45,556 nt of DNA, from contig JARNMJ010000033.1 in the NCBI GenBank assembly GCA_029432795.1, forward strand, positions 1 to 45,556, given 5' to 3'. Below are positions 2,964 to 45,523 of this stretch, one piece after another. Position 1 is the first letter of the stretch, and each line of letters opens with the position of its first letter. The DNA is from Pontiellaceae bacterium B12219 (lineage in GTDB: Bacteria > Verrucomicrobiota > Kiritimatiellia > Kiritimatiellales > Pontiellaceae). The notes below the pieces were generated by a model. The model saw only the letters and a program-made list of their open reading frames with translations. It ran no database searches and was not told where the DNA came from. The position numbers and the translations under genes are program-made.

Positions 2964-4663
2964 TGACAGCCTTTCATCCAGTTCTGAACGAATTAATGAA
3001 GGCCGGAAGCCTTCATGTCAGCCAGGTCGATGCCATTCAGGAAGAACATCTGGCTCAGGGAAAATCGGTGCGCACGATTGCACTTGAGCAGGAATATATC
3101 TCCGAAACCGACTATCTGGAAGCATTGGCAACGGTGCTCGACACCGAGGTGGTCGATCTTGCCGCAACCCTGCATCTTCCAGACCTTGGGCAACTGGTTC
3201 CGGCCAGCATGGCCCGCATGCACGAAATCGCTCCCGTTCGTTCGAAAGACGATATCCTGGTCTTTGCCGTTGCGGACTGGCCCTCCCCGGCGGCCACCGA
3301 CGACATCGCCTTCGTCCTTTCCCGCCGCGTTGAATATGTGGTTGCGCCCCGGAAGCAGATAACCGATCGAATTTTAAAGCTGTATGGCGAAGAAAGTGAG
3401 TCCATCAGGGAACTGCTATCCGTACTGGATACCGACCTTCAGCATGCCGGCGACCTGATTCACCTTAAAGATACGCCGGCACTTGAAGATATCGAACACG
3501 CCGCCAACGCCACACCGGTGATCCGGTTTGTGAACCTCGTACTCTATCAGGCCGTGAAAGACCGCGCATCCGACATTCATTTTGAGCCCTTTGAACACGA
3601 ATTCAAGATTCGCTACCGCGTGGATGGCGTGCTCTATGAAATGGCTCCGCCTCCGAAAAACCTGGCCTTGCCGATTATCTCCCGCGTGAAAGTCATCTCC
3701 GGGCTGGATATTGCCGAATCACGCCTGCCGCAGGATGGCCGGATTCAGTTGAACATTGCCGGCCGGTCGATCGATTTCCGCGTTTCCACCCTCCCGACGC
3801 AGTTCGGCGAAAGCGTGGTTTTGCGGGTACTGGACCGCACGAATGTCCAGCTGGACATTCATCGAATCGGGTTTCCGGAAGATATCCAGACCTCCTTCCT
3901 TGAGGACATTCACAAACCGAACGGGATTGTTATTGTTACCGGACCGACAGGCTCGGGAAAAACCACCACCCTTTATGCCGCGCTCCAGCAGATCAACCGG
4001 GTGGAAAATAAAATCCTGACCGCCGAAGATCCGGTCGAATACGATGTGGAAGGAATTATTCAGCTGCCGATCCGGGAAAATATCGGCCTGACCTTCGCCT
4101 CCGCCCTGCGCTCTTTTCTCCGACAGGATCCGGACATTATTATGGTCGGAGAAATCCGGGATCGGGACACCGCACAGATTTCGGTTCAGGCCTCGCTCAC
4201 CGGGCATCTGGTCTTCAGCACCCTGCACACGAACGATGCCGCCGGGGCCATTACCCGCCTGATCGATATGAATGTCGAACCCTACCTGATTGCCTCCACC
4301 CTGGAAGCAGTTATGGCACAGCGACTCATCCGAACCATTTGCCCCGCCTGCAAAACGGCTTATCAGCCCGACGACGAAACCCTCCAGCTACTGGAACTCA
4401 GCCGAGAGCAGGTCGGAACCCAACCCTTCTATCGCGGTGCAGGTTGCGAAGCGTGCAGCCATAGCGGATACAGCGGGCGCAGAGCACTGTTTGAATATCT
4501 GCGCATCAATGACGCACTGCGTCAGGCCATTATTGAAAAACAGCCAACCCTGACGATCAGGAACAAAGCAATTGAATTAGGGATGCGCACCTTGCGCGAA
4601 GATGGGATACGCTGTATCCTGGACGGTCTAACTACAGTTGAAGAAGTGGTACAGTACACATGA
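2963..4663 (+). CDS. gspE: Type II secretion / type IV pilus assembly ATPase (GspE/PilB family), second paralogue
   Basis: Second GspE/PilB-type ATPase, 566 residues. Its ATG overlaps the stop of the preceding gene (TGATG), so the two are probably translationally coupled. It has the same domain order: N-terminal GspE domain, Walker A GPTGSGKTT near 327, Walker B IIMVGEIRD near 391, His box TGHLVFSTLHTND, and zinc cysteines CPAC near 459 and CEAC near 494. Both catalytic sets look intact, so neither copy is an evident dead paralogue. The pair may form mixed hexamers or serve separate machines; the sequence does not decide. A perfect 20-base palindrome (GAATGTCCAG/CTGGACATTC) lies in the coding sequence at 3841-3860. 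Confidence 0.93.
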   Translation: MTAFHPVLNELMKAGSLHVSQVDAIQEEHLAQGKSVRTIALEQEYISETDYLEALATVLDTEVVDLAATLHLPDLGQLVPASMARMHEIAPVRSKDDILVFAVADWPSPAATDDIAFVLSRRVEYVVAPRKQITDRILKLYGEESESIRELLSVLDTDLQHAGDLIHLKDTPALEDIEHAANATPVIRFVNLVLYQAVKDRASDIHFEPFEHEFKIRYRVDGVLYEMAPPPKNLALPIISRVKVISGLDIAESRLPQDGRIQLNIAGRSIDFRVSTLPTQFGESVVLRVLDRTNVQLDIHRIGFPEDIQTSFLEDIHKPNGIVIVTGPTGSGKTTTLYAALQQINRVENKILTAEDPVEYDVEGIIQLPIRENIGLTFASALRSFLRQDPDIIMVGEIRDRDTAQISVQASLTGHLVFSTLHTNDAAGAITRLIDMNVEPYLIASTLEAVMAQRLIRTICPACKTAYQPDDETLQLLELSREQVGTQPFYRGAGCEACSHSGYSGRRALFEYLRINDALRQAIIEKQPTLTIRNKAIELGMRTLREDGIRCILDGLTTVEEVVQYT

Positions 4664-18299: not shown

Positions 18300-19337
18300 A
18301 TGAATTATTTACAGACTCTGCTAACCGAGATTTGGGAAATCACCCTTTCCATGGCGCCCTATCTGCTCTTCGGCTTTTTGATTGCCGGCATTCTCTCCGA
18401 ACTGATTTCAAAGAAATTCGTCCGAAACCACCTCGGCGGTCGAAGCTGGCTGCAATCGCTGAAAGCGGCGCTCGTCGGCGTTCCGATGCCGGTCTGCTCC
18501 TGCGGCGTCATTCCGCTGGCCGCCTCGTTGCGGGATCACGGAGCCAGCCGCGGAGCCACCGCTTCGTTCCTCGCTTCCACTCCCCAAACCGGCGTGGACA
18601 GCCTGATGGTCACCTACGCCCTGCTCGGCTTACCCTTCGCCATTTTCCGTGCGCTCGCCGCCTTCGTTTCCGGTATTTTCTGCGGCGTCGCCGTCGAAGC
18701 GGTCACCACCGACAAAGAAGCGGCCGACGCTTCCCCCGACCAGGGCGATGAAGTCAGCGAGCGAAAGACCTTCCTTCAAAAAATCGGCCAAATGCTGAAA
18801 TACGGCTTCATCTCCCTGCCCGCCAAAATTTCCACCGCCATGATTTTCGGCATCATTGTTTCCGGCATCATCAGTAGTGTTATTCCCGAAAACTATTTTG
18901 CCGACCGCATGGGCGGTTTCGCCGTATCAATGCTGCTCATGCTGCTGATCGGCACTCCGCTCTACGTCTGCTCCTCGGCCTCTGTTCCGATTGCGCTCGC
19001 CTTCATTAAAGCCGGTATTGAACCCGGCGCCGCGCTCGTTTTCCTGATTATGGGCCCGGCCACCAACGCAGCCACGATTTCCACCCTTTGGAAAATTATC
19101 GGCAAAAAACAGCTCATCGTTTTTCTGGCGGCCCTCACGCTCACCGCGCTCGGATCGGGCATCCTGATGAATCAGCTTCCGATCCACATCGGCGACAGCC
19201 CCCTCGCCTGCACGTCCTGCGAATATACCGGCCCGCTGCAATTGCTCTTTGCAATACTGCTCATTCTCATCCTGCTGGTCGGTTCGCTCCGCCCCTACTT
19301 TTCCCGATTCAAAAAACAAACAAAGGATTGCTCATGA
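18300..19337 (+). CDS. SO_0444/UPF0718-like heavy-metal efflux permease
   Basis: 345-residue polytopic inner-membrane permease. Around eight to ten hydrophobic helices are visible, with the characteristic VPMPVCSCGVIPLAASLRDHGAS segment near residues 61-85 whose CxC pair is a likely metal ligand; a related half begins near 200 (TPLYVCSSASVPIALAFIKAG), showing internal duplication. The family is annotated as Cu/Zn efflux in Shewanella-type members. The ATG follows AGGAAATCAGC. A CsoR-type operator precedes it and the csoR gene overlaps its stop by four bases (ATGA), so copper or a related soft metal is the probable substrate. A TTCCA-N5-TGGAA palindrome lies in the coding region at 19079-19093. 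Confidence 0.82.
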   Translation: MNYLQTLLTEIWEITLSMAPYLLFGFLIAGILSELISKKFVRNHLGGRSWLQSLKAALVGVPMPVCSCGVIPLAASLRDHGASRGATASFLASTPQTGVDSLMVTYALLGLPFAIFRALAAFVSGIFCGVAVEAVTTDKEAADASPDQGDEVSERKTFLQKIGQMLKYGFISLPAKISTAMIFGIIVSGIISSVIPENYFADRMGGFAVSMLLMLLIGTPLYVCSSASVPIALAFIKAGIEPGAALVFLIMGPATNAATISTLWKIIGKKQLIVFLAALTLTALGSGILMNQLPIHIGDSPLACTSCEYTGPLQLLFAILLILILLVGSLRPYFSRFKKQTKDCS

Positions 19338-19627: not shown

Positions 19628-21736
19628 ATGAAAAGAATCAAGGCCATTGTCATCGTACTGGTTGCTCTCCTGACCGGATTCTTTATCCGGGGACTGATGG
19701 CCCCGAACATTCAACCTCAACCGGAAAACGCAGAACCGAAAACAGAAGTTTGGACCTGCTCAATGCATCCGCAAATCCAGCTTCCAAAGGCTGGAAAATG
19801 CCCGATCTGTTTTATGGACCTGATTCCACTCGAAACCGGTTCTGACTCCGGTGGTGAACGCGAAATCAGCGTGAGTCCCTATGCCGCCAAACTGATGGAA
19901 ATCGAAACCTCGCCGGTTGAGCGGCGCTTTGTTGCAGCCGAAGTGCGTATGGTCGGGAAAGTCGATTATGATGAAACGCGCCTCGCCACAATTTCCGCAT
20001 GGGTGCCGGGCCGCATTGACCGACTTTTTGTCGATTACACCGGTATGTCCGTCAAAGCGGGTGATCATCTGGCCGAACTCTACAGTCCTGAAATGCTGAA
20101 CGCACAAAAGGAACTGTTCCATGCCATACATCAGAATCCATCCATGCTCGACTCCGTCCGGGAACGATTTCGCCTCTGGGGATTCGATGCCGACCAAATC
20201 CGCGAAATTGAACGCGAAGGAAAACCGCGCGATCACATGACCCTCTACGCCACCGCCAGCGGTATTGTCATTCATCGAAATGCAACCGAAGGCATGTATG
20301 TTGATACCGGAACCAAACTATTCACGATTGCGGATCTTTCCAGCGTCTGGATTCTGCTCGATGCCTACGAAAGCGATATCCAATGGCTGCGCTATGGCAG
20401 TACCGTTGAATTCACCACGGAAGCCTATCCCGGCCAACCCTTCTCCGGCACGGTTTCTTTTATTGACCCCGTCATCAATCCCGCTACCCGCACCGCCAAG
20501 GTGCGCGTCATCGTTGAAAACAAAGACCGAAGGCTGAAACCCGGCATGTTTGTCCGCGCCGTCGCCCGCCCTAACATCGCAGCAGATGGCCGGGTGATGG
20601 ATGCCGGCCTCGCCGGAAAATGGATCAGCCCGATGCATCCTGAAGTGGTGAAGGACGAACCCGGCAGTTGCGATGTCTGCGGCATGCCGCTGGTACCCGC
20701 CGAGTCGCTCGGCTACGTCTCCGGAACCGAAGACAACGCACCGCTGGTCGTCCCGGTTATCGCCGCGCTCAAAACCGGCAAGCGCGCTGTGGTCTATGTC
20801 GAAATTCCCGACCAGAAAAAACCGACCTATGAAGGCCGCGAAGTCGAACTCGGCGTACGCCTCGGCAATTTCTATGTGGTCGAAAGCGGGCTCGATGAAG
20901 GCGAGCGTGTCGTCACCCGCGGCGCGTTCAAACTGGATGCCGAACTCCAGATTCAGGCACGGCCCAGCATGATGAGTGCACCGGACGAAACCACGGAAAT
21001 GGCCGGCATGGATCACAGCTCGATGCAAATGGATCTCCAACCGCTGGACGTTCCGGAAGCCTTCAGCCAACAGCTGGATGCCGTCGTGGATGCCTATTTT
21101 GACGTCCAACTGAGCCTTGCAGAAGACGCACCGGCCAAAACAAGAGCTGCGGCGGCCATCATGAAGGAAAAACTCGGGCAAGTGGATATGGGCCTGCTCG
21201 ACGGCGATGGACATATGATCTGGATGGAGCAGCTTAAAAACCTGAATGGCCCGCTCAGCAAACTGGCCAAGGAAGACTCAATCGAAAAACAACGGGAATT
21301 TTTCTTCCTGTTCTCCCAGCAACTCGGGAAAACGATAAAGATCTTCCCGACCCAACGGACCGTTTACCAAGCCTACTGCCCGATGGCTTTCGACAACAAA
21401 GGTGCAACGTGGCTTCAGGCCGCCGACGAAATCCTCAACCCCTACTTTGGCGACATGATGCTCCACTGCGGCGAAATCCAGGAAACCATCGGAGAAGCGC
21501 CCATGAAAATGGAAACGATCCCGACTCCAACATCTTCCCCAAAGACACAAACACGATGCCCGATTATGGGCAATCCGATCAATAAAGACGTCTACACCGA
21601 CCATGAAGGAAAGCGCATCTATTTCTGCTGCGCGGGATGCGACAGCACCTTTCTTGAAAATCCCGAAATATACCTGAAGCAGATGACGGACGAAGGCATT
21701 GAAATCGAAGCCGTGGAGCAAGTTCATGCGCATTAA
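19628..21736 (+). CDS. cusB: CusB-type RND periplasmic adaptor with extra metal-binding domains
   Basis: 702 residues, far longer than the roughly 400 of CusB. In order: a signal anchor (1-25), heavy-metal-binding domain HMBD 1 (WTCSMHPQI...CPICFMDLIPL, about 42-68), the hairpin/barrel-sandwich adaptor core (about 80-320), HMBD 2 (ISPMHPEVV...CDVCGMPLVP, about 335-360), a further barrel segment, Met/His-rich MDHSSMQMD (about 460), a DUF3347-like region (about 475-620, with YCPMAF and MLHCGE), and a C-terminal YHS domain (about 640-690, RCPIMGNPI and FCCAGC). The adaptor links the CusA pump to an outer-membrane channel and delivers Cu(I)/Ag(I). Four distinct metal modules in one chain is unusual. 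It begins 12 bases after csoR. A TTCCA-N5-TGGAA palindrome lies in HMBD 1 (19782-19796). Confidence 0.9.
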   Translation: MKRIKAIVIVLVALLTGFFIRGLMAPNIQPQPENAEPKTEVWTCSMHPQIQLPKAGKCPICFMDLIPLETGSDSGGEREISVSPYAAKLMEIETSPVERRFVAAEVRMVGKVDYDETRLATISAWVPGRIDRLFVDYTGMSVKAGDHLAELYSPEMLNAQKELFHAIHQNPSMLDSVRERFRLWGFDADQIREIEREGKPRDHMTLYATASGIVIHRNATEGMYVDTGTKLFTIADLSSVWILLDAYESDIQWLRYGSTVEFTTEAYPGQPFSGTVSFIDPVINPATRTAKVRVIVENKDRRLKPGMFVRAVARPNIAADGRVMDAGLAGKWISPMHPEVVKDEPGSCDVCGMPLVPAESLGYVSGTEDNAPLVVPVIAALKTGKRAVVYVEIPDQKKPTYEGREVELGVRLGNFYVVESGLDEGERVVTRGAFKLDAELQIQARPSMMSAPDETTEMAGMDHSSMQMDLQPLDVPEAFSQQLDAVVDAYFDVQLSLAEDAPAKTRAAAAIMKEKLGQVDMGLLDGDGHMIWMEQLKNLNGPLSKLAKEDSIEKQREFFFLFSQQLGKTIKIFPTQRTVYQAYCPMAFDNKGATWLQAADEILNPYFGDMMLHCGEIQETIGEAPMKMETIPTPTSSPKTQTRCPIMGNPINKDVYTDHEGKRIYFCCAGCDSTFLENPEIYLKQMTDEGIEIEAVEQVHAH

Positions 21737-21756
21737 CCACAACAGATCAATCACCA

Positions 21757-21823
21757 TGGAGGGACCGTTTCCACCCGGTCTTCCGCTCGAGCAGATTAAG
21801 TCGGGGTGGAACCCGACCCTCCA
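21757..21823. repeat. Inverted pair of REP-like GGAGGG palindromes
   Basis: TGGAGGGACC...TCCACCCGGTC (21757-21784) and, inverted, a TTGGAGGGTC...TTCCACCCCGAC unit (21799-21823). Each unit is itself a hairpin and together they form an inverted pair between cusB and cusA. Same family as the elements at 23551-23604 and 45213-45428. Confidence 0.65.
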
Positions 21824-21933
21824 ATTATTTGCCACAAGAGAGCACAAAGTAAACAAAGCCGTTCTTTCGCGGCTAATCCCTCATCCGCTCCGCTTCCGTG
21901 TATTCCGTGGTTCCCTCTTCCCAAGGAGCAGTC

Positions 21934-24900
21934 ATGAACTCCCAGCAAACTCCTGAGCAGCGATCGGTGGTCGGGCGGCTGATCCGCTTCTGCCTTGAAA
22001 ACCGGCTCGTTGTGGTGCTCTTCACCATGGCAGTCATTTTTGCCGGCATTCTTGTGGCACCGTTTGACTGGAAGGTCGGAGAGCTGCAGCGCTACCCCGT
22101 CTCCGTCGACGCCATTCCGGACATTGGAGAAAACCAGCAGATTGTTTTCACCGAATGGATGGGCCGTTCGCCGCAGGATGTGGAAGACCAGATCGGCTAT
22201 CCGCTCACCGTGCAGCTGCTCGGCATCCCCGGCGTCAAAACGATCCGCTCCTACTCCATGTTCGGCTTTTCCTCGATCTACATTATTTTCAAGGAGGACG
22301 TGGATTTCTACTGGTCTCGCACCCGCGTGCTCGAAAAGCTCAACAGCCTTTCGGCCGGCACCCTGCCGGAAGGCGTACAGCCTACACTCGGGCCCGACGC
22401 CACTGCGCTAGGCCAGGTCTACTGGTACACGCTCGAAGGCCTTGATCCCGAAGGAAACCCGACCGGTGGGTGGGATCTCGAAGAGCTGCGCACCATTCAG
22501 GACTGGTATGCCCGCTACTGGCTGCTCTCGGCCGACGGCGTGGCCGAAATCGCCTCGATCGGCGGCTATGTCCGCGAATACCAGATTGATGTCGATCCCG
22601 ATGCGATGCGCGCTTATGGCGTGAATATCGACGAGATTTACAGCGCGGTCAAAGGGGCCAACATCGACGTTGGCGCCAAGAGCATTGAAGTCAACCGGGT
22701 TGAATATTTTATCCGCGGCATCGGCTTCATTAAATCCATTGAAGACATCGAGAACAGCGTGATCAAAGTCGGCGCGGATAACGTGCCGGTATTGGTCAAG
22801 CACGTCGCCGGCGTCACCCTCGGCCCGGCCACCCGCCGCGGCGCGCTCGACAAAGGCGGCGCCCCCGCCGTCGGCGGCGTGGTGGTTGCCCGCTATGGCG
22901 ACAATCCGCTCAAGGTGATCTCCAATGTCAAAAACAAGATTGCCGAAACAGCGGATGCACTCCCCAGAAAAACGCTGACCGACGGCACCGTCAGTCAGCT
23001 CACCGTGGTCCCGTTCTATGACCGCACCGGACTGATTTATGAAACCCTCGGCACCCTCAACGAAGCCATCGGTCAGGAAATACTGATCACCATCATCGTC
23101 GTGCTGATTATGGTCATGCATCTGCGCAGCGGGCTGGTTATCAGCTCGATGCTGCCGCTGGCCGTTCTGCTCTGTTTTGTCGGCATGAAGCTCTTCAAGG
23201 TGCAAGCCAATATTGTAGCCCTCTCCGGCATCGTGATCGCCATCGGAACCATTGTCGATATGGGCATCGTCATCTGCGAAAATATTCTCAAGCACCTCGA
23301 TCAGGCCGATCCCGAAGAGCCCCGCCTCGAAGTGGTTCACCGCGCCGCGAGCGAGGTCGGCAGCGCGGTGCTTACCGCCGTACTGACCACCATCGTCAGT
23401 TTCCTGCCGGTCTTCACCATGATCGGTGCAGAAGGCAAGCTCTTCAAACCGCTGGCCTTCACCAAAACCTTTGCGCTGCTCGCCTCCATCATCCTCGCGC
23501 TTACCGTGCTGCCGGTCATGGCGCATGCCTTTTTTGGAAAGGGGCGGAAAGGTAGGGCACTTTCGACGAAAGCACCACGGACGGCTCGGCGAGCCATCCC
23601 TACCCTTCTCACTGCCCTGCTCGTTGGCTATTGGCTGACGGTCGAATGGGAACCGCTCGGACCGGAAAAGGGCGTTATTCAAAACCTGCTCTTTGTGGCC
23701 CTGCTCATCGGCGGCCTACTGGGCTTCTTCAAGGTCTTCCAGCATTTCTATCCACGGATCCTCGGGTGGTGCCTCAAGCACAAAGCAGCGTTTCTATCCA
23801 TCCCGATCGCCCTTCTTATTCTTGGAACAACTGCATGGCTCGGCTTCAATAAAACCTTCGGCTGGTTGCCGGATTCCCTGCAAACGCGCGGTGCTGAAAT
23901 TTTTCCTGGCTTTGGAAAAGAGTTCATGCCCGATCTCGATGAAGGGTCGTTCCTCTTCATGCCGACAACGATGACCCATGCCTCCATCGGCGAATCCATC
24001 GATATTCTTGAAAAACAGGATTTAGCCATCCGCTCCATTCCGGAAGTTGAGTCCGTCGTCGGCAAACTCGGCCGGGCGGAAACGCCCCTCGACCCCGCAC
24101 CGATCTCGATGATCGAAACCGTCATCAACTATATCCCGGAATACAGAACCGATAAGGATGGACGGCGCATCAACTACAAATTCAAGAAAGGTGAGTTTGT
24201 GCGCGATGAACAGGGGGAACTGATCGAAGACCGGCGCGGACGTCCTTTCCGCCAGTGGCGCGAGCATATCCGCACCCCGGACGATATCTGGAAGGAAATC
24301 ACCGAAGCCGCCAAAATCCCCGGCACCACCTCCGCGCCGAAACTCCAGCCTATCGCCGCCCGTATCGTGATGCTGCAGAGCGGTATGCGCGCCCCGATGG
24401 GCGTGAAGGTTCAAGGGCCGGATCTCGACACCATCGAACGCGTTGGACTGCAGATTGAGCACTACCTCAAAGAGGTGCCTTCGATTGAACCGGCCGCTGT
24501 AATTGCCGACCGTATCGTCGGCAAACCCTATCTCGAAATTGTGCCCGATCGCGAAGCACTGGCACGCTACGGCATTCCGATTCGTAAGTTTCAGGACGTC
24601 GTCGAGATCGCCATCGGCGGCCGTCAGGTGACCGGCACCGTCGAAGGCCGCGAACGCTTCCCCGTCCGCGTCCGCTATCAACGGGAGCTGCGCGACAACA
24701 TTGAGGCACTCGATAAAATACTCGTACCCGGCGCCGGCGGCCTGCAGATCCCCATCACCGAACTGGCGGAAATCAAATACGTGCGCGGTCCGCAGAATAT
24801 TAAAAGTGAAGACACCTTTCTGGTGGGCTATGTGGTCTTCGACAAGAAACCGGGTTATGCCGAAGTGGATGTGGTTGAACAGGCGCAGACCTATCTGCAA

Positions 24901-25569
24901 TCTAAAATCGACAGCGGCGAGTTCAGCCTGCCACGCGGCGTCAGCTACCGCTTTGCCGGCAGCTACGAAAATCAGCTGCGCGCCGCCAAGACGCTCGCCA
25001 TGGTGATGCCGATCGCCCTCTTGGCTATCTTTATGCTGATCTACTTCGAGTTCAAATCCACCTCCACCACCCTGCTGATTTTTACCGGCGTCTTTATTGC
25101 GTGGTCGGGCGGCTTTATCCTGATCTGGCTCTACGGTCAGCCGTGGTTTCTCGACTTCAGCCTGTTCGGGGTAGAGATGCGGAACCTGTTTCAGGTTCAC
25201 ACCATCAATATGAGCGTCGCGGTCTGGGTCGGGTTCCTCGCCCTCTTCGGCATTGCCACTGACGACGGCGTTGTGATGGGAACCTATCTGACACAGACGT
25301 TCCGCGACAATACGCCGAAAAGCAAAACCGAAGTTCGGGAATTAGTGATCCAGGCCGGTACGCGGCGTGTCCGCCCCTGCCTGATGACCACCGCCACCAC
25401 CATTCTGGCACTCATTCCCGTGCTCACCTCCACCGGCCGCGGTTCCGACATTATGGTTCCGATGGCCATCCCCGGCTTTGGCGGCATGCTCATTGAAGTC
25501 GTCACTATGCTTGTCGTCCCGGTGCTTTACAGCTGGATCCAGGAATGGAGATTTTTCCGAAAGACCTAA
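21934..25569 (+). CDS. cusA: CusA/CzcA-family RND heavy-metal efflux pump
   Basis: Inner-membrane proton-driven trimeric pump for Cu(I)/Ag(I)-type ions. The start at 21934 (MNSQQTPEQRS) has AAGGAG nine bases upstream and replaces a longer frame from 21898. 1211 residues, about 160 more than CusA. Visible are the first helix (VVVLFTMAVIFAGILV), the VDAIPDIGENQQIVFTEWMGRSPQDVEDQIGYPL segment, helices near 395-540, a second bundle from about 1020, and the GIATDDGVVMG/RRVRPCLMTT motif typical of heavy-metal RND pumps. Extra length comes from a linker after the first helix bundle, which includes an in-frame palindromic repeat (23551-23604, residues about 540-557), and a charged insertion near 735-790. 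No cusC gene is adjacent. Confidence 0.94.
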   Translation: MNSQQTPEQRSVVGRLIRFCLENRLVVVLFTMAVIFAGILVAPFDWKVGELQRYPVSVDAIPDIGENQQIVFTEWMGRSPQDVEDQIGYPLTVQLLGIPGVKTIRSYSMFGFSSIYIIFKEDVDFYWSRTRVLEKLNSLSAGTLPEGVQPTLGPDATALGQVYWYTLEGLDPEGNPTGGWDLEELRTIQDWYARYWLLSADGVAEIASIGGYVREYQIDVDPDAMRAYGVNIDEIYSAVKGANIDVGAKSIEVNRVEYFIRGIGFIKSIEDIENSVIKVGADNVPVLVKHVAGVTLGPATRRGALDKGGAPAVGGVVVARYGDNPLKVISNVKNKIAETADALPRKTLTDGTVSQLTVVPFYDRTGLIYETLGTLNEAIGQEILITIIVVLIMVMHLRSGLVISSMLPLAVLLCFVGMKLFKVQANIVALSGIVIAIGTIVDMGIVICENILKHLDQADPEEPRLEVVHRAASEVGSAVLTAVLTTIVSFLPVFTMIGAEGKLFKPLAFTKTFALLASIILALTVLPVMAHAFFGKGRKGRALSTKAPRTARRAIPTLLTALLVGYWLTVEWEPLGPEKGVIQNLLFVALLIGGLLGFFKVFQHFYPRILGWCLKHKAAFLSIPIALLILGTTAWLGFNKTFGWLPDSLQTRGAEIFPGFGKEFMPDLDEGSFLFMPTTMTHASIGESIDILEKQDLAIRSIPEVESVVGKLGRAETPLDPAPISMIETVINYIPEYRTDKDGRRINYKFKKGEFVRDEQGELIEDRRGRPFRQWREHIRTPDDIWKEITEAAKIPGTTSAPKLQPIAARIVMLQSGMRAPMGVKVQGPDLDTIERVGLQIEHYLKEVPSIEPAAVIADRIVGKPYLEIVPDREALARYGIPIRKFQDVVEIAIGGRQVTGTVEGRERFPVRVRYQRELRDNIEALDKILVPGAGGLQIPITELAEIKYVRGPQNIKSEDTFLVGYVVFDKKPGYAEVDVVEQAQTYLQSKIDSGEFSLPRGVSYRFAGSYENQLRAAKTLAMVMPIALLAIFMLIYFEFKSTSTTLLIFTGVFIAWSGGFILIWLYGQPWFLDFSLFGVEMRNLFQVHTINMSVAVWVGFLALFGIATDDGVVMGTYLTQTFRDNTPKSKTEVRELVIQAGTRRVRPCLMTTATTILALIPVLTSTGRGSDIMVPMAIPGFGGMLIEVVTMLVVPVLYSWIQEWRFFRKT
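23551..23604. repeat. Palindromic repeat pair inserted in frame in cusA
   Basis: 54 bases bounded by GGTAGGG and CCCTACC, made of two hairpins in inverted orientation. The right half, read on the minus strand, is AGGGATGGCT-N5-AGCCGTCC, the same stem as the intergenic unit at 45247-45272 with differences almost only in the loop. It codes for about 18 basic residues (GRALSTKAPRTARRAIP region) in a cytoplasmic loop without breaking the frame. Confidence 0.7.
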
Positions 25570-37933: not shown

Positions 37934-38932
37934 TCAGAAGGACAGCTGCAGCCCGGCAATCACCTTCCAATCGGTTTCCAGCTGCGGGCCGTCGAGCTCC
38001 TGATAAACCGGAAGGCCGGCTTCAATCGCCAGCCGCATAACGTCCCGACGGTAATCAATCCCCGCCAGCAGATCCACCTCGGTGCCGGCGCGCAGGTTCG
38101 GATCGGCCAGCGGCGTCATCATCGGACTGGGCATATCCGGATCGGCCCCGTCAATATTCTCTGTGCGGTTTCCACTGAGACGCAAGGATACCGCCGACGA
38201 TTTGCACAGATCGCGCAAGCCCCACGCCTGAAGAGCATACCGATTGCCCAATGTGTAATCGTTGTAATTTTCATTCAGATAAAAGGTGCCGTTCACCTGC
38301 GCACCCCAGCCCCAGCCGTTGGCAAGGCCGGAATACGTAATGCCCGGAATCAGGCCATACGACCCGGAACCCAGCTGCATCGGATACGGCAGATGCTGCC
38401 CGGCCGCATTTTCTTCATCAATCGATCCGGTCGGAAAGCTTACTGCCAGATTCAGCAGAAGCTGCTGCGCGGAAGAGGACCAAAGGCGGTACGTACTGCT
38501 CACTTTCAAATCGCCGAAACCTTTAGATTCCATCTGCATGGGCGTGCTCATGCCCATCATCACCATATTCATATCCATATCGTTCACCAGATACGGCAGC
38601 ATGATACCAATCGTCAGATTATTGATCGGCGTGTACATGGCACCGAACATATGCATCTGCATATCCATACTTTCCGGTTGCATCATATAGCCCGAAACAT
38701 CGCCGCCCTCAATGCCTTCCATTTTCATGAACATATAGCGATACGAAACCATCCACCCGCCTTTATGGTGCACATGATCGCCCATCACTCCGATCGGCGC
38801 ACGCGGTTCATGGTTACATTCGCACACCTCGGCGCACCCGCAGTCATCCCCGCACGTCGCGCACACCTCGGCCGAGACACCTGTTACTGCAGCAAAAAAT
38901 AAAATAAACAAACCGACAATCCAATAACGCAT
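37934..38932 (-). CDS. Met/His/Cys-rich outer-membrane beta-barrel-like protein, probable metal-related transporter
   Basis: About 332 residues. The start at 38932 (MRYWIVG) has GGAG nine bases upstream; an ATG at 38947 is possible. It has a signal peptide (about 1-20, ending TGVSA), then a Cys/His cluster (CATCGDDCGCAEVCECNHE, about 24-42, and DHVHHK), then repeated amphipathic strands ending in Phe (KVIAGLQLSF), like the transporter/phenol MetA-degradation-type barrels. Many methionines (MYTPINN flanked by MDMQMHMFG, MDMNMVMMGMSTPMQM) point to copper or silver binding. It is therefore possibly linked to the copper island at 18-25 kb, though not adjacent to it. It is separated from the phoU-arsC gene by about 250 bases holding a CTTTTGGTT/AACCAAAAG inverted repeat (39028-39066). 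Confidence 0.7.
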   Translation of the reverse strand: MRYWIVGLFILFFAAVTGVSAEVCATCGDDCGCAEVCECNHEPRAPIGVMGDHVHHKGGWMVSYRYMFMKMEGIEGGDVSGYMMQPESMDMQMHMFGAMYTPINNLTIGIMLPYLVNDMDMNMVMMGMSTPMQMESKGFGDLKVSSTYRLWSSSAQQLLLNLAVSFPTGSIDEENAAGQHLPYPMQLGSGSYGLIPGITYSGLANGWGWGAQVNGTFYLNENYNDYTLGNRYALQAWGLRDLCKSSAVSLRLSGNRTENIDGADPDMPSPMMTPLADPNLRAGTEVDLLAGIDYRRDVMRLAIEAGLPVYQELDGPQLETDWKVIAGLQLSF

Positions 38933-39181
38933 CCTTCTACTCTCCATTACGAGGTTAAAGCCGCTTGATACTTCATTCAGACGGCCCTGTCGAATTTCAA
39001 TAAGTTTTTTTAGCCGGGGTCACACGCCTTTTGGTTCACGGCACTGTCTTTTGAAAAAACCAAAAGTGTACACCGTTATTTCATCGGCAGTATAATCGAG
39101 AATACCGGAAACAAGAATGTGCGAGGGGAGTGCAAAGACAGCTCCTGCGATCAGTTCTTCACCCGATCATATTTTCCGGAT

Positions 39182-40276
39182 TTATAATTTGATGCTTGTG
39201 TTCAAGTGCTCAATTCGCTTCTTCAGCTCATCCCGCACATTACGGAAAGCGGTAAGTTTATCGGCATCAACCGACAGGGATGCCGGATCATTAAAATGCC
39301 ATGCATCGCGTCTCACCTCGCCGGGAAGATTGATGCAGACCTCTTCCCGGCAAAGGGTGATGACCAGGTCGGCTTTTCCGATCGGAATATCGGTCAGCCG
39401 TTTCGTGTACTGACAGGAAAGGTCTATGCCGATTTCCTGCATGACCTGAACGGCAATTGGATTGATCGCATCGGCAGGCGAGGATCCCGCACTGAACACC
39501 TGGATACTTCCGGGAAGTATGCGTTTGGCAAGCGCTTCAGCCATTTGACTGCGAGCCGAGTTTTGGACGCACAGAAATACAATACATGCGGGATGTTCAC
39601 CATCTCGGACTTTCCGGTGCGCGACCGGTTGGCCCGTCGCATAATATACCGCCTTTTCGCAGATGTTTTTGGCATGATCTCCGATGCGCTCCACACAGTT
39701 AACCATGGCCATAAGCCTGGAGATCTGTGCGTAGCTCATTTCTTCGGATCGCAGACGTTCCAGCATGCTTCGGAAAAGGAGCGCCTGATAGGCATCCACT
39801 CCCCGGTCCTCCAGCATCAATGCAGCGGCTCCTTCCGAATCCGCTGCAAGAAACGCTTCGACTGCACGGCCCACCAGAGTCAGAGCCTTGTTGAACATGG
39901 CTTCCATTTCGGGATCAACCGGAGCCTCGTCATCCTGCAGGAGCTCAATGGTTTTCTCTGCAATGGTGACGAGATGGTCCGCAATCCGCTCCAGATCGGA
40001 AACAATTTTCTGGGAAGATACGATGAATCGCAGATCTGTCCCCACCGGTTGGCGAAGCGCAATGGCACTGATGCAGCGTCGGTCCACTTCCATCTCGAGC
40101 CGATCGACCTGATCATCCGCATGAATTACGGCATAGGCCATTCCCAGATCGCTCTCAAACAACCCCTGCATTGCCTGCGCCCCCATGCTGCTGATGGACT
40201 CCGCCATATCACAAACAGACTTCCTGATGGCCTGCAGCTCAGATTCAAATTCCCTATCGGTATGTTGTGATGTCAT
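39182..40276 (-). CDS. PhoU-ArsC fusion: phosphate-signalling protein joined to an arsenate reductase-like domain
   Basis: 364 residues. Residues about 10-215 are a full PhoU with both repeats, each with its metal motif (ERIADH 96-101, ERIGDH 196-201). Residues about 228-364 are a low-molecular-weight-phosphatase-type ArsC: P-loop CVQNSAR (C236-R242), then LCREEVC with C309 and C314 as the likely redox pair, and HFNDPASL. The P-loop has Ala where thioredoxin-coupled ArsC has Cys (NSCRS), a position not needed for catalysis. PhoU restrains Pst uptake and Pho signalling; ArsC reduces arsenate to arsenite. Last gene of the arsR::arsC-pstSCAB operon. Its ATG has GAGAGGG upstream and lies 11 bases after pstB. 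A fusion of these two functions in one chain is unusual. Confidence 0.9.
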   Translation of the reverse strand: MTSQHTDREFESELQAIRKSVCDMAESISSMGAQAMQGLFESDLGMAYAVIHADDQVDRLEMEVDRRCISAIALRQPVGTDLRFIVSSQKIVSDLERIADHLVTIAEKTIELLQDDEAPVDPEMEAMFNKALTLVGRAVEAFLAADSEGAAALMLEDRGVDAYQALLFRSMLERLRSEEMSYAQISRLMAMVNCVERIGDHAKNICEKAVYYATGQPVAHRKVRDGEHPACIVFLCVQNSARSQMAEALAKRILPGSIQVFSAGSSPADAINPIAVQVMQEIGIDLSCQYTKRLTDIPIGKADLVITLCREEVCINLPGEVRRDAWHFNDPASLSVDADKLTAFRNVRDELKKRIEHLNTSIKL

Positions 40277-40287
40277 AAAACCCTCTC

Positions 40288-41079
40288 TTATCCGAATTTC
40301 CCGGTAATATAATCTTCGGTCCGTTGATCTTTTGGCGCTGTGAAAAGCTGTTCAGTTTCACCAAACTCGATCAATTCACCCAGATACATGTAGGCGGTGT
40401 AGTCGGAAACGCGCGTTGCCTGTTGCATGTTGTGCGTAACAATAACTACCGTATAGCGCTCGCGCAGCGTATGAATCAGATCCTCAATTTTGGTGGTGGC
40501 AATCGGATCGAGCGCCGAGCAAGGTTCATCCATAAGCAACACTTCCGGTGCAAGGGCCAGTGCACGGGCAATGCAGAGGCGTTGCTGCTGTCCACCGGAG
40601 AGTGAGAGTGCAGAGCTTTTCAAACGGTCCTTGACCTCGTCCCAAATGCTGGCTTTGCGTAACGACCATTCGACAATTTCATCCACCTCCGCCCGCGAAA
40701 CTTTCATATGCAGGCGAACACCAAATGCCACATTTTCATAAATGCTTTTGGGAAACGGATTCGGCTTCTGAAACACCATGCCCACTCGGCGGCGCAAAGC
40801 AACCGGATCGACGGTGCGATCCAGCACATTCGAATCATTCACCCGAATGGCTCCTTCCGTTCTCGCCGTGGGCACCGTTTCATTAATCCGGTTAATCCAG
40901 CGCAACAACGTACTCTTCCCGCATCCTGACGGCCCGATGAACGAAGTCACCTGCTGTTTTTCCATTCCGATATTGATATTTTTCAGGGCCTGAAAAGATC
41001 CGTACCACGCATTAAAATTTTCAATTTCAATGGCATTGGGCATAGCCCCTTTTTCACTGTTTTTTTTTAAACCGTTCAT
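40288..41079 (-). CDS. pstB: Phosphate ABC transporter ATP-binding protein
   Basis: ATPase of the high-affinity Pst importer. Up to 263 residues. Walker [10 protein letters not shown], signature [15 protein letters not shown], and Walker [13 protein letters not shown] are all intact, with PstB-specific segments ([45 protein letters not shown]-like [12 protein letters not shown]). The ATG at 41079 has TAAGGA five bases upstream; ATG at 41043 ([10 protein letters not shown]) is the alternative. It lies 12 bases after pstA in the operon. Confidence 0.96.
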
Positions 41080-41091
41080 AACGTCCTTATT

Positions 41092-42315
41092 CTAAGATAG
41101 TGCCTTATTGGAGCGATTGCGGATGATGATGGCAATTGCATTAAAACAAAGCAGGATGGTCAGCAGCACAACAATACCGCTGGCCGCCAGATCGTGAAAT
41201 TCCTGTTGCGGGCGCTGCGCCCAATTATAGATCTGCAACGGCATGGCGGTAAAATCATCCATGATATTGCCCGGTGGATTGGTAATGAAAACAATGCCGG
41301 CAATCATCAGCAACGGTGCCGCCTCACCGATGGCACGGCTGATCGCCAAAATGGTTCCGGTCATCACCGTTGGCAATGCAGAAGGAAACACCACCCGCCA
41401 AACCGTTTGCCAACGCGAAAGACCCAATCCCCAGCCAGCTTCGCGCAGGCTATAAGGGACGGCCCGCAATGCCTCCTGGGTGGCAATAATAATGACAGGA
41501 AGAATCACCAACATCAGTGTCAGTGCTCCGGTCAGAATCCCACGACCGAATGGAACCCGAAAATAATACCAACTGCGGTCATGAACTCTTCCCGGGGTGT
41601 CGTAATCCCGCAAAGTTCGTAGCGAAAGCTCTTCATCCTCCGGCCATGGAGCATCCTCTCCAATCACGTGGATACGGACCTTTTCTCCGCTTGTGGTCAG
41701 GGCCTCAAGCCCCTCAGTCAAAACAGCTTCAGGCGCATGAGGCCCATCCACCGGCACCAATAAAACCTGGTCGGTTTCGCTATAAAACTGATCGAAGGAA
41801 CGAATGCCCCATTCCACCATAGATTCTCCCGACTTCCCCGCAAATCCGAACATCGAAACAAAGATCGTTAAACCAATAATTCCATACACCACAGAAGGCA
41901 CGCCGGCGAGGTTTGTAATATTGAGCTGAAGCAATGAGTGAATCCGCTTGAGCACCGGTTTTCGCGGCGTGAATTCCTCCAGCATAATAGCCGTCGCCAC
42001 CCCCGCAGGCAAAGCCAGTAGCGGAACGAGAACCAACAGCCATATACTCCCCATAATCGCGGGGAAAAAACCGGCCTGCGCCGGATCGGGATCGGGTGGA
42101 TTGCTCAAAAATGTTTTGGTCAACTCACCAACGCCCAGTCCGAGCAGTGTCAAGATCAACAAAACCAACATTCCTACACTAGAAAAAGCAGCCCCCACAC
42201 AGAAACCCCGAAAAATGCGGTTGTTTCGATTGCGTTGCTTTTCCGGACGTGTGGCTGCGGCATGCTTTTCAGGGTCAGAGAGAATCTCCGGCATATGTGA
42301 TTTTTTTTTGCTCAT
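41092..42315 (-). CDS. pstA: Phosphate ABC transporter permease PstA
   Basis: Inner-membrane permease, 407 residues, about 110 more than E. coli PstA. Extra length is a cytoplasmic N-terminal segment (about 1-33) and a soluble insertion between membrane helices (about 165-245, PVDGPHAPEAVLTEGLEALTT region), probably periplasmic. The permease core is intact: GVPSVVYGIIGLTIFV, the EAA-loop-like LREAGWGLGLSRWQTVWRVVFPSALPTVMTGTILAISRAIGEAAPLL. The ATGA overlap with pstC shows coupling. The insertion is also seen in some PVC and marine PstA proteins, to my recollection, but was not checked. Confidence 0.94.
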   Translation of the reverse strand: MSKKKSHMPEILSDPEKHAAATRPEKQRNRNNRIFRGFCVGAAFSSVGMLVLLILTLLGLGVGELTKTFLSNPPDPDPAQAGFFPAIMGSIWLLVLVPLLALPAGVATAIMLEEFTPRKPVLKRIHSLLQLNITNLAGVPSVVYGIIGLTIFVSMFGFAGKSGESMVEWGIRSFDQFYSETDQVLLVPVDGPHAPEAVLTEGLEALTTSGEKVRIHVIGEDAPWPEDEELSLRTLRDYDTPGRVHDRSWYYFRVPFGRGILTGALTLMLVILPVIIIATQEALRAVPYSLREAGWGLGLSRWQTVWRVVFPSALPTVMTGTILAISRAIGEAAPLLMIAGIVFITNPPGNIMDDFTAMPLQIYNWAQRPQQEFHDLAASGIVVLLTILLCFNAIAIIIRNRSNKALS

Positions 42316-43268
42316 TGATATTCCTCGCGGAAACGCTTGCGGATAAGAGCACCCATTAGGGTGAAACCGAGGGTGATGATGAACAGCATAAAGGCCACCG
42401 CATACATCGATAAATATTCAACACCATAGTTGGAAACATCCCCGAGGGCCATTTGCACCATGAACCCCGTCATAGTCTGAATTTCTTCTCCAACATTCAG
42501 CGTCAACTTCGGTGTATTTCCGGCCGCCAATGCCACCACCATGGTTTCTCCAATTGCCCGCGCCGCGGCTAACAAAATGGAAGAGATGATGCCCGACAAC
42601 GCTGCCGGAAGAATTACTTTGAACGAAGTTTCTGCGGGTGTGGCCCCCAACCCGAGCGCCCCTTCCCTCAAATTGTTCGGCACCGCTCGTAACGCATCTT
42701 CGGAAAGAGATGTAATGATCGGGAGGATGAGAATACCCACAGCAACCCCGGCCGATAAAGCGTTATATGAACCCACATTCTCGCTGATCATTTTAAACCC
42801 CGGTGTGAAAACCGTCAGCGCCAGAAAACCGTAGACCACGGTCGGAATACCGGCCAGCACCTCCAGTGCCGGTTTAATGATGGCCCGCACCCGCGGGTTG
42901 GCGTATTCGCTTAAAAACACCGCGGTAAGAAGACCGGCCGGCACGGCGATCAGCAGGGCAATGAATGCCACCAGCAACGTACCGCAAACGAGCGGCCAAA
43001 TGCCGAAATGCTTTTCGGAACCCAGCAGCGGATTCCACTCAACGCCGGTCAAAAATTCACGCACGGATACGCCGTCCTGCTGGAAAAACAGGGAAGCTTC
43101 GTATCCGAGCACGATGATGATGATCAGCGTGAGCAGGACCGACAGGATGGTGATCAGCCCCATTCCGGAGAGGATTCCGGCCTCGCTGACCTTCTGGGTC
43201 AGGCGGGACCGCAACCTTACGGAAACGGGAAACCATGTTTTCGATGTAGACGGGATTCCGTTTTTCAT
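42312..43268 (-). CDS. pstC: Phosphate ABC transporter permease PstC
   Basis: Partner permease of PstA, 318 residues with six helices. Characteristic segments: LGYEASLFFQQDGVSVREFLTGVEWNPL, VLAGIPTVVYGFLALTVFTP, and the EAA-type LREGALGLGATPAETSFKVILPAALSGIISSILLAAARAIGETM. It starts 18 bases after the pstS stop and its stop overlaps the pstA start. No PstC oddities were seen. Confidence 0.95.
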   Translation of the reverse strand: MKNGIPSTSKTWFPVSVRLRSRLTQKVSEAGILSGMGLITILSVLLTLIIIIVLGYEASLFFQQDGVSVREFLTGVEWNPLLGSEKHFGIWPLVCGTLLVAFIALLIAVPAGLLTAVFLSEYANPRVRAIIKPALEVLAGIPTVVYGFLALTVFTPGFKMISENVGSYNALSAGVAVGILILPIITSLSEDALRAVPNNLREGALGLGATPAETSFKVILPAALSGIISSILLAAARAIGETMVVALAAGNTPKLTLNVGEEIQTMTGFMVQMALGDVSNYGVEYLSMYAVAFMLFIITLGFTLMGALIRKRFREEYQ

Positions 43269-43286
43269 GCTGATTTACCGGACACC

Positions 43287-44315
43287 CTACTTGGTGTTCA
43301 CCAGGTTTTTGATTTGATACAGCTCGCTCACGGATCCCTCACGCTTTTCCAGTTCCGGGGTCAGATAGACCGTACCCATATACCGGTTTTTCACGAATGT
43401 ATGGGTCCGTTCAATAACATCATCCGGCAGAGAAACATAATCCACCTGTTCGGCAAACTCACCGGACCTGCCCACATAAAATTCCAGGAACTTTCTGACC
43501 GAAGGTTTCCGCAGCGATTTGGAATTCACGTAAATGAAAAGCGGACGGCTGAGGGGGGCATATTCGCCGCTGATCACGTTTTCAGGCTCGGGCAATACCG
43601 CTTTACCCGTTTTCGGATTCACAATCGGCACGGCTTTGAGTTTGTCTCTGTTCTCGAAATAATAGGCGGCACCAAAGTAGCCGATCGAATACTTATCGCC
43701 CGCGACGCCGGTCACCAGCACGTTGTCATCCTCGCTCGTCGACATATCGCTGCGGAAACTCTTCCCCTCGGGAACAACCACTTCCTTGAAATAATCGAAC
43801 GTGCCCGAATCCGTTCCGGGGGAATACACCTTGATCGGTTTGTCCGGCCATGCCGGGTTCAGATCACTCCAGCTGCGCACCGTTCCATCTTCCAGATAAA
43901 TGGCCTGAATATCTTCAACCGTCAACTGGTCGAGCCAATCGTTCTCGGGGTTGACAATGACCGACAGGCCATCCAGACAAATCGGCACCTCAATGAACTC
44001 AATACCGTTCGCCCGGGCTTCTTCGAATTCCTTGGCCTTGATCGGGCGGGACGCATCGGAGACATCCGTTTCGCCTTTCACAAAACGCTTGAAACCGCCC
44101 CCGGTTCCGGAAATGGCAATCGTTACATTCACATTGGGAAAATCTTTGCGGAATGCGGCGGCCGCTGCTTCCGAAACCGGATACACCGTGCTGGAACCGT
44201 CCACCACCACATTGCCCTGCAACGCGCTGGACTGAGCCTGCGACAGGCCTGCGGATGTGCAGAGCGCAAGCGCCGTCAACATCGTTGCTTTAGTCTTAGT
44301 TTTCATTGTTCTCAT
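43287..44315 (-). CDS. pstS: Phosphate-binding periplasmic protein PstS
   Basis: Binds inorganic phosphate with high affinity for the Pst importer. About 342 residues from the ATG at 44315, which has AAAGGA upstream; the longer frame from 44342 is less likely. Signal peptide about 1-25 (ALALCTSAGLSQAQS). Ligand-region motifs: VDGSSTVYPVSEAAAAAFRKDFP, ISGTGGGFKRFVKGETDVSDASRPIK, and SPGTDSGTFDYFKE. This is the PstS group with ISGTGGGF and the GTDSGTFD loop. PstS proteins discriminate phosphate against arsenate, which matters here because arsC fusions flank the operon. It follows arsR::arsC by 29 bases. Confidence 0.95.
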   Translation of the reverse strand: MRTMKTKTKATMLTALALCTSAGLSQAQSSALQGNVVVDGSSTVYPVSEAAAAAFRKDFPNVNVTIAISGTGGGFKRFVKGETDVSDASRPIKAKEFEEARANGIEFIEVPICLDGLSVIVNPENDWLDQLTVEDIQAIYLEDGTVRSWSDLNPAWPDKPIKVYSPGTDSGTFDYFKEVVVPEGKSFRSDMSTSEDDNVLVTGVAGDKYSIGYFGAAYYFENRDKLKAVPIVNPKTGKAVLPEPENVISGEYAPLSRPLFIYVNSKSLRKPSVRKFLEFYVGRSGEFAEQVDYVSLPDDVIERTHTFVKNRYMGTVYLTPELEKREGSVSELYQIKNLVNTK

Positions 44316-44344
44316 GGTTTTATTCCTTTCGTGTTTAATCATGT

Positions 44345-45130
44345 TTAAATGTTCTGAGTGCCTTCATCCGAGAGCCAGCGGGTAATTCTTCGCTGAAGTT
44401 CATCGCGAGTTTGGCGAAAAGCCTGAAGTCGTTCCTCTTTCGTGCCGGTCACCGCCGCCGGATCCGGCAAGGCCCAGTTAAGCCGCTCCGTAATTCCCGG
44501 AAAAATCGGACATCTGTTATCGGCATTCGCACACACCGTAATCAAATAGCCGAAGTGCACCCGTCCCAGATATTCCATGACATCCGTCGGCACCTGCCCC
44601 CGGATATCGATACCGATTTCTGCCATCACTTCATAGGTGAGTTCATGAACCGGATGGGGATCCAGACCGGCGCTGTAAGCTTCGAACCGGCCGCCCGAAC
44701 AGGAGCGCAGCAGGGCCTCGGCCATCTGGCTGCGGCATGAATTCCCGGTACAGAGAAACAGCACGCGGGTTTTCGATGGCACAGGACAGGGAATATCGGA
44801 ATTGAGCATCACCACCGCACGCTTGGCCGCATCGGCCTTAACCTGTGGATCGTCTGCCGCATGGGCACGTATCCAGGCGAGCACTTCCCGCACACAACGG
44901 GAGTCGGAATGCGCTGCCCAGCTGTAATAATGCCAGCGACCTTCTTTACGGCTTTCCATCAGCCCGGCATCCAGCAATACATTCACATGCTGCGAAACCG
45001 TTGACGGTGCGAGCCCGAGAATTTCTGTCAGCTGGCACTGGCACAGCGTTGTCCCTTCCAGGCACATCAGAATGCGCAGACGGCTGGCGTCGCCCAGCGC
45101 TTTTCCAATCGATACAACTTCTGTTTTCAT
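44345..45130 (-). CDS. ArsR-ArsC fusion: arsenite-sensing repressor joined to arsenate reductase
   Basis: 261 residues, first gene of the pst operon. Residues 1-100 are an ArsR winged-helix repressor with the As(III)-binding CxC (LCQC, C30 and C32) at the start of the alpha-3 region, then recognition helix APSTVSQHVNVLLDAGL. Residues about 120-255 are a thioredoxin-coupled ArsC: P-loop CTGNSCRSQMAEAL (C127-R133), resolving pair C200 and C207 in TVCANADNRCPIFPG, and WALPDPAAVTG. All catalytic residues look intact. ArsR senses arsenite made by its own ArsC domain. The ATG at 45130 lies 9 bases after the -10 with no Shine-Dalgarno, so leaderless translation is likely. No arsB or acr3 pump is in the window. 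Confidence 0.92.
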   Translation of the reverse strand: MKTEVVSIGKALGDASRLRILMCLEGTTLCQCQLTEILGLAPSTVSQHVNVLLDAGLMESRKEGRWHYYSWAAHSDSRCVREVLAWIRAHAADDPQVKADAAKRAVVMLNSDIPCPVPSKTRVLFLCTGNSCRSQMAEALLRSCSGGRFEAYSAGLDPHPVHELTYEVMAEIGIDIRGQVPTDVMEYLGRVHFGYLITVCANADNRCPIFPGITERLNWALPDPAAVTGTKEERLQAFRQTRDELQRRITRWLSDEGTQNI

Positions 45131-45138
45131 GCGCCAAT

Positions 45139-45144
45139 TCTATA
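45139..45144 (-). promoter_or_regulatory. -10 element of the arsR::arsC-pst operon promoter
   Basis: TATAGA on the minus strand. The 17 bases upstream of it contain exactly the ArsR-type palindrome, and the -35 position is occupied by the last repeat of the Pho-box-like array instead of a TTGACA. Expected for an activator-dependent promoter. Confidence 0.6.
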
Positions 45145-45145
45145 C

Positions 45146-45161
45146 TTCGGTATATACCGAA
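45146..45161. promoter_or_regulatory. ArsR-type operator
   Basis: TTCGGTATATACCGAA is a perfect 16-base palindrome located between the -10 and the -35 position of the operon promoter, 15 bases before the arsR::arsC start. The TATA-centred form resembles known ArsR operators; binding would block RNA polymerase. Confidence 0.8.
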
Positions 45162-45163
45162 CT

Positions 45164-45191
45164 GATTAGCGTTTTGTTAGCATTCCGTTAG
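45164..45191 (-). promoter_or_regulatory. Pho-box-like triple direct repeat
   Basis: On the minus strand CTAACG-N5-CTAACA-N5-CTAATC, three 6-base repeats in exact 11-base phase. This is the repeat geometry of PhoP and PhoB boxes. The promoter-proximal repeat falls on the -35 position (about 20 bases from the -10), as in Pho-activated promoters. Confidence 0.6.
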
Positions 45192-45212
45192 AGGCAATGG
45201 GGTGCATTCCGG

Positions 45213-45428
45213 TGGCGGACGCCAAGGACGTCGTCCCTCTGAAAACGGCAGGGATGGCTGTCCCAGCCGTCCGTATGCCGAAGCCGCCCCACTGCCAATA
45301 CATCCGCATCGAGGTCACGGACCTCGGCTACACATTTTGGAACACCAATACTGTGTTTGCATGTAGGCCGGGGGCCGCGACCCTGACACCTCGCTAAAAC
45401 TGGAGGGACGATGTCCTCATCGTCCGCC
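45213..45428. repeat. Cluster of REP-like palindromic units
   Basis: Several hairpin units of one family fill the 393-base gap after the pst promoter: 45213-45238 (inverse of AGGGACGACGTCC...GGCGTCC), 45247-45272 (AGGGATGGCT-N5-AGCCGTCC), a diverged unit at about 45364-45391 (AGGGTCGCGGCCCCCGGCCT on the minus strand), and 45399-45424 (TGGAGGGACGATGTCCTCATCGTCC-like). Another hairpin GAGGT/ACCTC is at 45310-45325. Apart from these, no gene is visible until 45524. Confidence 0.6.
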
Positions 45429-45523
45429 CCGTCACCCGTGAACAGCGCGGTGCGACACCACGCCCTAGTGTAGTGCGCCGCAAATCGGTTTACATTACAA
45501 AAAGTTATGGCATGATGGTTTGC

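Follow-up and report, generated by a model that had tools for sequence, protein, structure and literature searches.

Putative composite promoter with a Pho box and an ArsR operator heading an arsenic-island pst operon in a Pontiellaceae bacterium

How is a phosphate pump controlled when its genes lie among those for arsenic resistance? The question is raised by a contig of Pontiellaceae bacterium B12219, the whole stretch of which (45,556 nt) was analysed and is called the window here. It carries an operon in the order arsR::arsC - pstS - pstC - pstA - pstB - phoU::arsC, which is a second pst operon located in an arsenic island, the other pst, with a phoU, being on contig C199. We consider it likely that this dedicated Pst operon has a composite promoter, the output of which needs low phosphate AND arsenite. 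The genes concerned are as follows.

44345..45130, minus strand: arsR::arsC fusion, an HTH_5 repressor with an LCQC motif joined to a thioredoxin-type arsenate reductase
43287..44342, minus strand: pstS (closest solved relative, 4jwo)
42312..43268, minus strand: pstC
41092..42315, minus strand: pstA
40288..41079, minus strand: pstB
39182..40276, minus strand: phoU::arsC fusion, PhoU joined to an LMW-PTP (thioredoxin-type) arsenate reductase
37934..38947, minus strand: outer-membrane-type protein (Phenol_MetA_deg), possible last gene of the operon

The operon is conserved in relatives. In Pontiellaceae bacterium B1224 (Kiritimatiellota; G001), pst-like genes come after arsR::arsC, together with a phoU-like gene of 366 aa, which is probably a phoU::arsC fusion, as judged by its length alone. 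In a genome of another family of the same class (G061), arsR::arsC stands at one end and a PhoU-LMW-PTP gene at the other (L030:829-1974), with pst-type genes, read by eye, between them. Operon membership of the 37934..38947 gene is uncertain, because no outer-membrane-type gene directly follows phoU::arsC in G001; its product has a Cys-rich start and a Met/His-rich segment and is perhaps metal-related. No description of a PhoU-ArsC fusion was found in the open-access literature, and a plasmid search for PhoU-ArsC gave one weak full-length match, in which PhoU and the phosphatase are separate neighbouring genes.

In G001, acr3, arsA, arsR2, arsJ and then the pst operon lie on one contig (C117). 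In the B12219 genome, contig C99 carries acr3 and arsJ at its start and the window breaks off a short way upstream of arsR::arsC, which makes it probable that the two contigs adjoin. The island has two further arsR genes (arsR2 and arsR3), one before acr3 and the other before gapdh-arsJ, gapdh being inferred from its position. No arsenite oxidase genes (aioBA/aioXSR) were recognised by eye in the island stretches read.

The promoter region of arsR::arsC contains the following elements.

45191-45186, minus strand: first repeat, CTAACG, read from the sequence
45180-45175, minus strand: second repeat, CTAACA, read from the sequence
45169-45164, minus strand: third and last repeat, CTAATC, read from the sequence
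45164..45191, minus strand: predicted Pho-box array of three 11-bp-phased repeats, CTAACG-N5-CTAACA-N5-CTAATC, assigned from its placement before Pho genes and its cores kept in G001
45146..45161, minus strand: predicted ArsR operator, the perfect 16-bp palindrome TTCGGTATATACCGAA (TTCG-N8-CGAA), assigned from the footprint of ArsR-ArsC fusions
45139..45144, minus strand: first -10 candidate, TATAGA, in the same place as TATAAA of arsR2/arsR3 and GATAGA of G061
45149..45154, minus strand: second -10 candidate, TATACC, within the operator, at the +15 offset of canonical Pho -10 elements (26 promoters)

The positions that the initial annotation had given for the repeats, the palindrome, TATAGA and the ATG were all correct, base for base. 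It had also described the palindrome as fitting a 17-base spacer and the last repeat as lying at a -35 position devoid of TTGACA. The fit is exact: the palindrome and one further G make up the 17-nt spacer (45161-45145). At the -35 position stands AATCAG (45167-45162), a hexamer overlapping the last repeat, CTAATC. The palindrome ends 15 nt before the arsR::arsC ATG at 45130. It shares 3 bp with the last 11-bp PhoB unit (45169-45159), and mutual exclusion on this unit is therefore possible. The array and the operator together take up 46 bp of one promoter, at the head of a single operon. An Rfam search of the whole window gave no matches.

The PhoB-type Pho box consists of 11-bp direct repeat units (PMC4415409), and the exact 11-bp spacing of the array units agrees with this. 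The genome encodes a PhoB/PhoR pair on contig C212, where phoB (best NCBIfam match TIGR02154, at 261 bits under the 296-bit cut-off) is followed by a gene for a PhoR/PnpS-type kinase and then by two Na/Pi cotransporter genes. The pattern CTAAN7CTAAN7CTAA has exactly two exact copies in the genome (4.75 Mb, 273 contigs), both before Pho-type genes: one is the arsR::arsC promoter and the other (C212:13188-13213) is flanked by genes for a Na/Pi cotransporter and a Porin_5 protein. Of the two one-mismatch copies, one directly precedes pstC of the C199 pst operon, which ends in an ordinary phoU, and a two-mismatch match of a stricter pattern lies directly before phoB. Within the 45-kb window, CTAAY-N6-CTAAY is present only at the arsR::arsC promoter. 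A survey of 28 genomes of the genus found 11 exact copies, 10 of which precede pstS, pstC, Na/Pi cotransporter, porin or arsR::arsC genes, the sole exception being G021:C3:246359; when the arsR::arsC copies of B12219 and G001 are left out, the count is 8 of 9. Raw motif counts are uninformative, since a reversed control pattern is commoner (18 + 24 vs 2 + 2 at one mismatch), and for this reason the placement of the matches was used as evidence. The rarity of the CTAAC-type pattern relative to the control is probably due to the stop codons in CTAA/TTAG, which are rare in coding DNA.

The cores of the array are conserved in G001, and its spacers have diverged. Between B12219 and G001 there are no differences in its 15 core bases and 7 in its 15 spacer bases (hypergeometric p about 0.003), and the two genomes are identical over the 30 bases from the palindrome through GGCG. 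The initial annotation had read the CTAAC repeats as Pho-box-like and proposed a motif search before other Pho genes; this search recovered them before pstC, pstS, phoB, Na/Pi cotransporter and porin genes, in the genome and across the genus. Judging from this placement, the CTAAC array is a real Pho box, to which PhoB is predicted to bind. This yields a Pho-box consensus for Pontiella-like Kiritimatiellota, CTAA(C/T)-N6 repeated with a -10 at +15; neither such a consensus nor any relevant paper on Kiritimatiellota Pho regulons or Pho boxes was found in the open-access literature. At Na/Pi cotransporter promoters (L025 on C212, L035, L038), inverted GTTAG occurs alongside the direct CTAAC arrays, so that some Pho arrays of the genus face both ways.

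The CTAAC repeats might instead belong to an ArsR-type operator of the island and have nothing to do with PhoB. CTAAC and CTAA/TTAG elements do occur in the promoters of arsR2 and arsR3 (L096 and L097; C99 of B12219 and C117 of G001), which read CTAACACAATTyTAATTTGACAATTAGC...CTAACTATAAA, and ArsR2/ArsR3 probably bind TTAG-N8-CTAA. This origin is nevertheless very improbable for the array before arsR::arsC, which has no TTAG partner and consists of three direct repeats at 11 bp; moreover, a like array precedes pst, phoB, Na/Pi cotransporter and porin genes, mostly in genomes that lack this ars operon. The CTAAC-N6-(C/T)TAAT beside the -35 of arsR2/arsR3 could itself also be a Pho box. The CTAAC elements of these two promoters overlap or adjoin ArsR-type inverted repeats and are not claimed as Pho boxes here.

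The palindrome stands in the arsR::arsC gene's own promoter, and the initial annotation had assigned it to ArsR. Eight ArsR-ArsC fusions, from Kiritimatiellota, Verrucomicrobia and Planctomycetes, were examined; TTCG-N8-CGAA is found shortly before the ATG in all eight, that of the window included, and also just before the gene in one partial Desulfarculaceae relative. The recognition helix, (S/A)PST(V/I)S(K/Q)H, is alike in the fusions read, apart from small variants. The assignment thus agrees with a footprint common to ArsR-ArsC fusions of several phyla, by which the palindrome is a predicted ArsR operator. The exact 16-mer TTCGGTATATACCGAA was seen only before arsR::arsC, in both B12219 and G001. 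One-mismatch copies elsewhere lie inside ORFs and were rejected as operators. The ArsR domain of the fusion has a CxC (C30, C32), the predicted As(III) site. In the five fusions of other lineages, whose -35 is TTGAC-like or TTGCAC, the operator abuts or overlaps the -10; a -35 of either kind is missing from the promoters of the window, G001 and G061, where Pho repeats stand upstream in its place.

A perfect 16-bp palindrome by itself is not rare, since the window contains three. This would suit the view that both sites are chance resemblances and neither is functional. Such a coincidence is extremely unlikely, however, in the face of the genome- and genus-wide specificity of the array, the conservation in G001 and G061 and the cross-phylum footprint of the operator. 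A perfect 16-bp palindrome less than 60 bp from an arsR start is expected by chance in roughly 0.1% of cases.

Where transcription starts is less clear. The initial annotation had chosen TATAGA as the -10. When 26 canonical Pho promoters of the genus were aligned on the last repeat, its unit CTAACA proved nearly invariant, and a -10 element nAnnnT was found at +15 to +20 (15 nt after the last repeat in 24 of 26), with A at +16 in 25/26 and T at +20 in 24/26. In the arsR::arsC promoter, TATACC is at +15 from the last repeat, inside the palindrome, and TATAGA at +25; the distance from last repeat to -10 is 27 nt in G061. The last unit here, CTAATC, also lacks the A at +5 that 25 of the 26 canonical last repeats have. 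With both sites taken as real, it is possible, if rather unlikely, that TATACC (45154-45149), in canonical Pho geometry, is the -10. ArsR-ArsC would then mask the -10 itself, and transcription would start at about 45142-45140 with a short leader, giving the same logic with another anatomy. This position of the -10 is consistent with the nAnnnT offset of the 26 promoters and with the -10 overlapping the operator in ArsR-ArsC fusions of other phyla. On the other hand, position +20 is C and not T in the arsR::arsC promoter, G061 has CGTTTG at that offset, and TATAGA matches the -10 position of arsR2/arsR3 exactly.

The promoters of arsR2 and arsR3, in the same island, consist of TTGACA, TTAG-N8-CTAA (16 bp) in the spacer, 1 nt, TATAAA, 7 nt and ATG, a leaderless arrangement. 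The arsR::arsC promoter likewise consists of the last Pho repeat, in the place of TTGACA, TTCG-N8-CGAA, 1 nt, TATAGA, 8 nt and ATG, and that of G061 of CTAGC-N6-CTAAC, TTCG-N8-CGAA, 1 nt, GATAGA, 8 nt and ATG. The array-to-operator distance is 8 and 10 in these two cases, and both -10 elements contain ATAGA. Just two Pho repeats, one of them imperfect (CTAGC), are recognisable in G061. This shared plan favours TATAGA with a leaderless or nearly leaderless transcript. The annotated -10 is thus backed by the arsR2/arsR3 match, while the canonical Pho -10 would lie ten bases closer to the last repeat, inside the palindrome; we lean towards TATAGA. With TATAGA as the -10, the array would be shifted upstream by about one helical turn (10 bp) from where it canonically lies, and the operator would take up the position of the promoter-proximal Pho unit. 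The off-standard distance means either that the activator acts from one turn of the helix further upstream or that TATACC, in the operator, is the real -10.

The anatomy of the promoter supports the predicted AND logic well. In low phosphate, PhoB~P, from the phoB-phoR genes on C212, would bind the three 11-bp repeats standing in for a -35 and recruit RNA polymerase. An ArsR-ArsC dimer on TTCG-N8-CGAA, between the Pho array and the -10, would block RNA polymerase until As(III) at the CxC site releases it, whereupon RNA polymerase would start. The second phosphate pump and the arsenic-detoxifying enzymes would probably be made only under phosphate shortage in the presence of arsenic. The cargo would be an extra high-affinity phosphate pump and two arsenate reductases, each joined to one of the regulators; arsenate taken in via Pst would thus be reduced at once, and the reduction would supply arsenite keeping the gate open. 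The activating (and not repressing) role of PhoB, the repression by ArsR-ArsC, its release with arsenite, the position of the start and the AND logic itself are inferred.

The off-standard distance between the array and TATAGA also bears on the sign of the control by PhoB. If PhoB~P sat over the -35 without its canonical contact and lowered transcription, the array would repress or merely modulate; arsenite would switch the operon on and low phosphate would switch it off, or ArsR alone would control it. ArsR-based control in A. tumefaciens 5A is described as phosphate-insensitive (PMC7965956), which would fit such a role. We regard a repressing array as improbable, since without a -35 element basal activity should be low in the absence of an activator, the array cores are kept while the spacers diverge, and the pst cargo is most sensible in low phosphate. 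With PhoB as the presumed activator, the promoter may further be a minimal AND gate in which the ArsR operator replaces the promoter-proximal Pho unit. The operon, with its ArsR and PhoU each fused to an arsenate reductase, would then be a self-contained, arsenate-proof Pst module of Kiritimatiellota. This remains on the doubtful side of plausible; if true, both inputs of the switch would be coupled to arsenate reduction through the enzyme that each sensor carries.

Dual arsenic and phosphate logic has already been proposed for Agrobacterium pst1, and the present promoter is a new, compact variant of that logic. According to the sections of the papers devoted to A. tumefaciens pst1, ArsR1 binds the promoter region and represses pstS1/phoB1, As(III) releases it, activation in low phosphate is due to PhoB, and the model reviewed amounts in effect to As(III) AND low Pi (PMC7965956, PMC7533571). 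As in the pst1-phoB1 locus of strains 5A/GW4, a second, arsenic-island pst operon lies beside ars genes and the other pst elsewhere. The Agrobacterium locus differs in that most ArsR1 motifs lie within a divergent region of 363 bp, at 100-150 nt upstream, and that arsenite oxidase genes are part of the island; those sections make no mention of an ArsR-ArsC or PhoU-ArsC fusion (PMC7965956, PMC7533571). In Halomonas sp. HAL1, the aioBA promoter is under a PhoB box, so that there, too, an arsenic gene is under direct Pho-box control when phosphate is low; the target, however, is arsenite oxidase instead of a Pst pump, the box resembles that of E. coli, and the account given of this promoter describes no ArsR operator (PMC4563254). 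ArsR-ArsC fusions, with repressor and arsenate reductase likewise in one polypeptide, are known from L. ferriphilum, Microbacterium and Sinorhizobium (PMC6205960). The other-lineage fusions found here have an ordinary TTGAC-like/TAyACT promoter, several of them near acr3-like genes, whereas that of the window heads a pst operon behind a Pho array. In B. subtilis phoPR, a CcpA cre box adjoins the PHO box (PMC4415409); Pho control is similarly joined to a second signal via adjacent sites, with another second regulator and another signal. The comparison suggests that the arsenic and phosphate cross-control of Agrobacterium has a more compact counterpart in a remote phylum. As a ready-made logic element for phosphate and arsenite, the promoter could find use as a biosensor.

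Two other regions were noticed. The intergenic region at 45200-45450 and the corresponding L029 (about 3950-4600) seemingly contain diverged GC-rich repeats (GGACGGCTGGGACAGCC and similar), and the presence of these upstream of arsR::arsC is possibly why the contig ends here. Elsewhere in the window, an ArsP_1-type permease gene (18300-19337) lies directly before genes at 19628-25569 for an apparent RND metal-efflux pair of the CusB/CusA kind, as read by eye.
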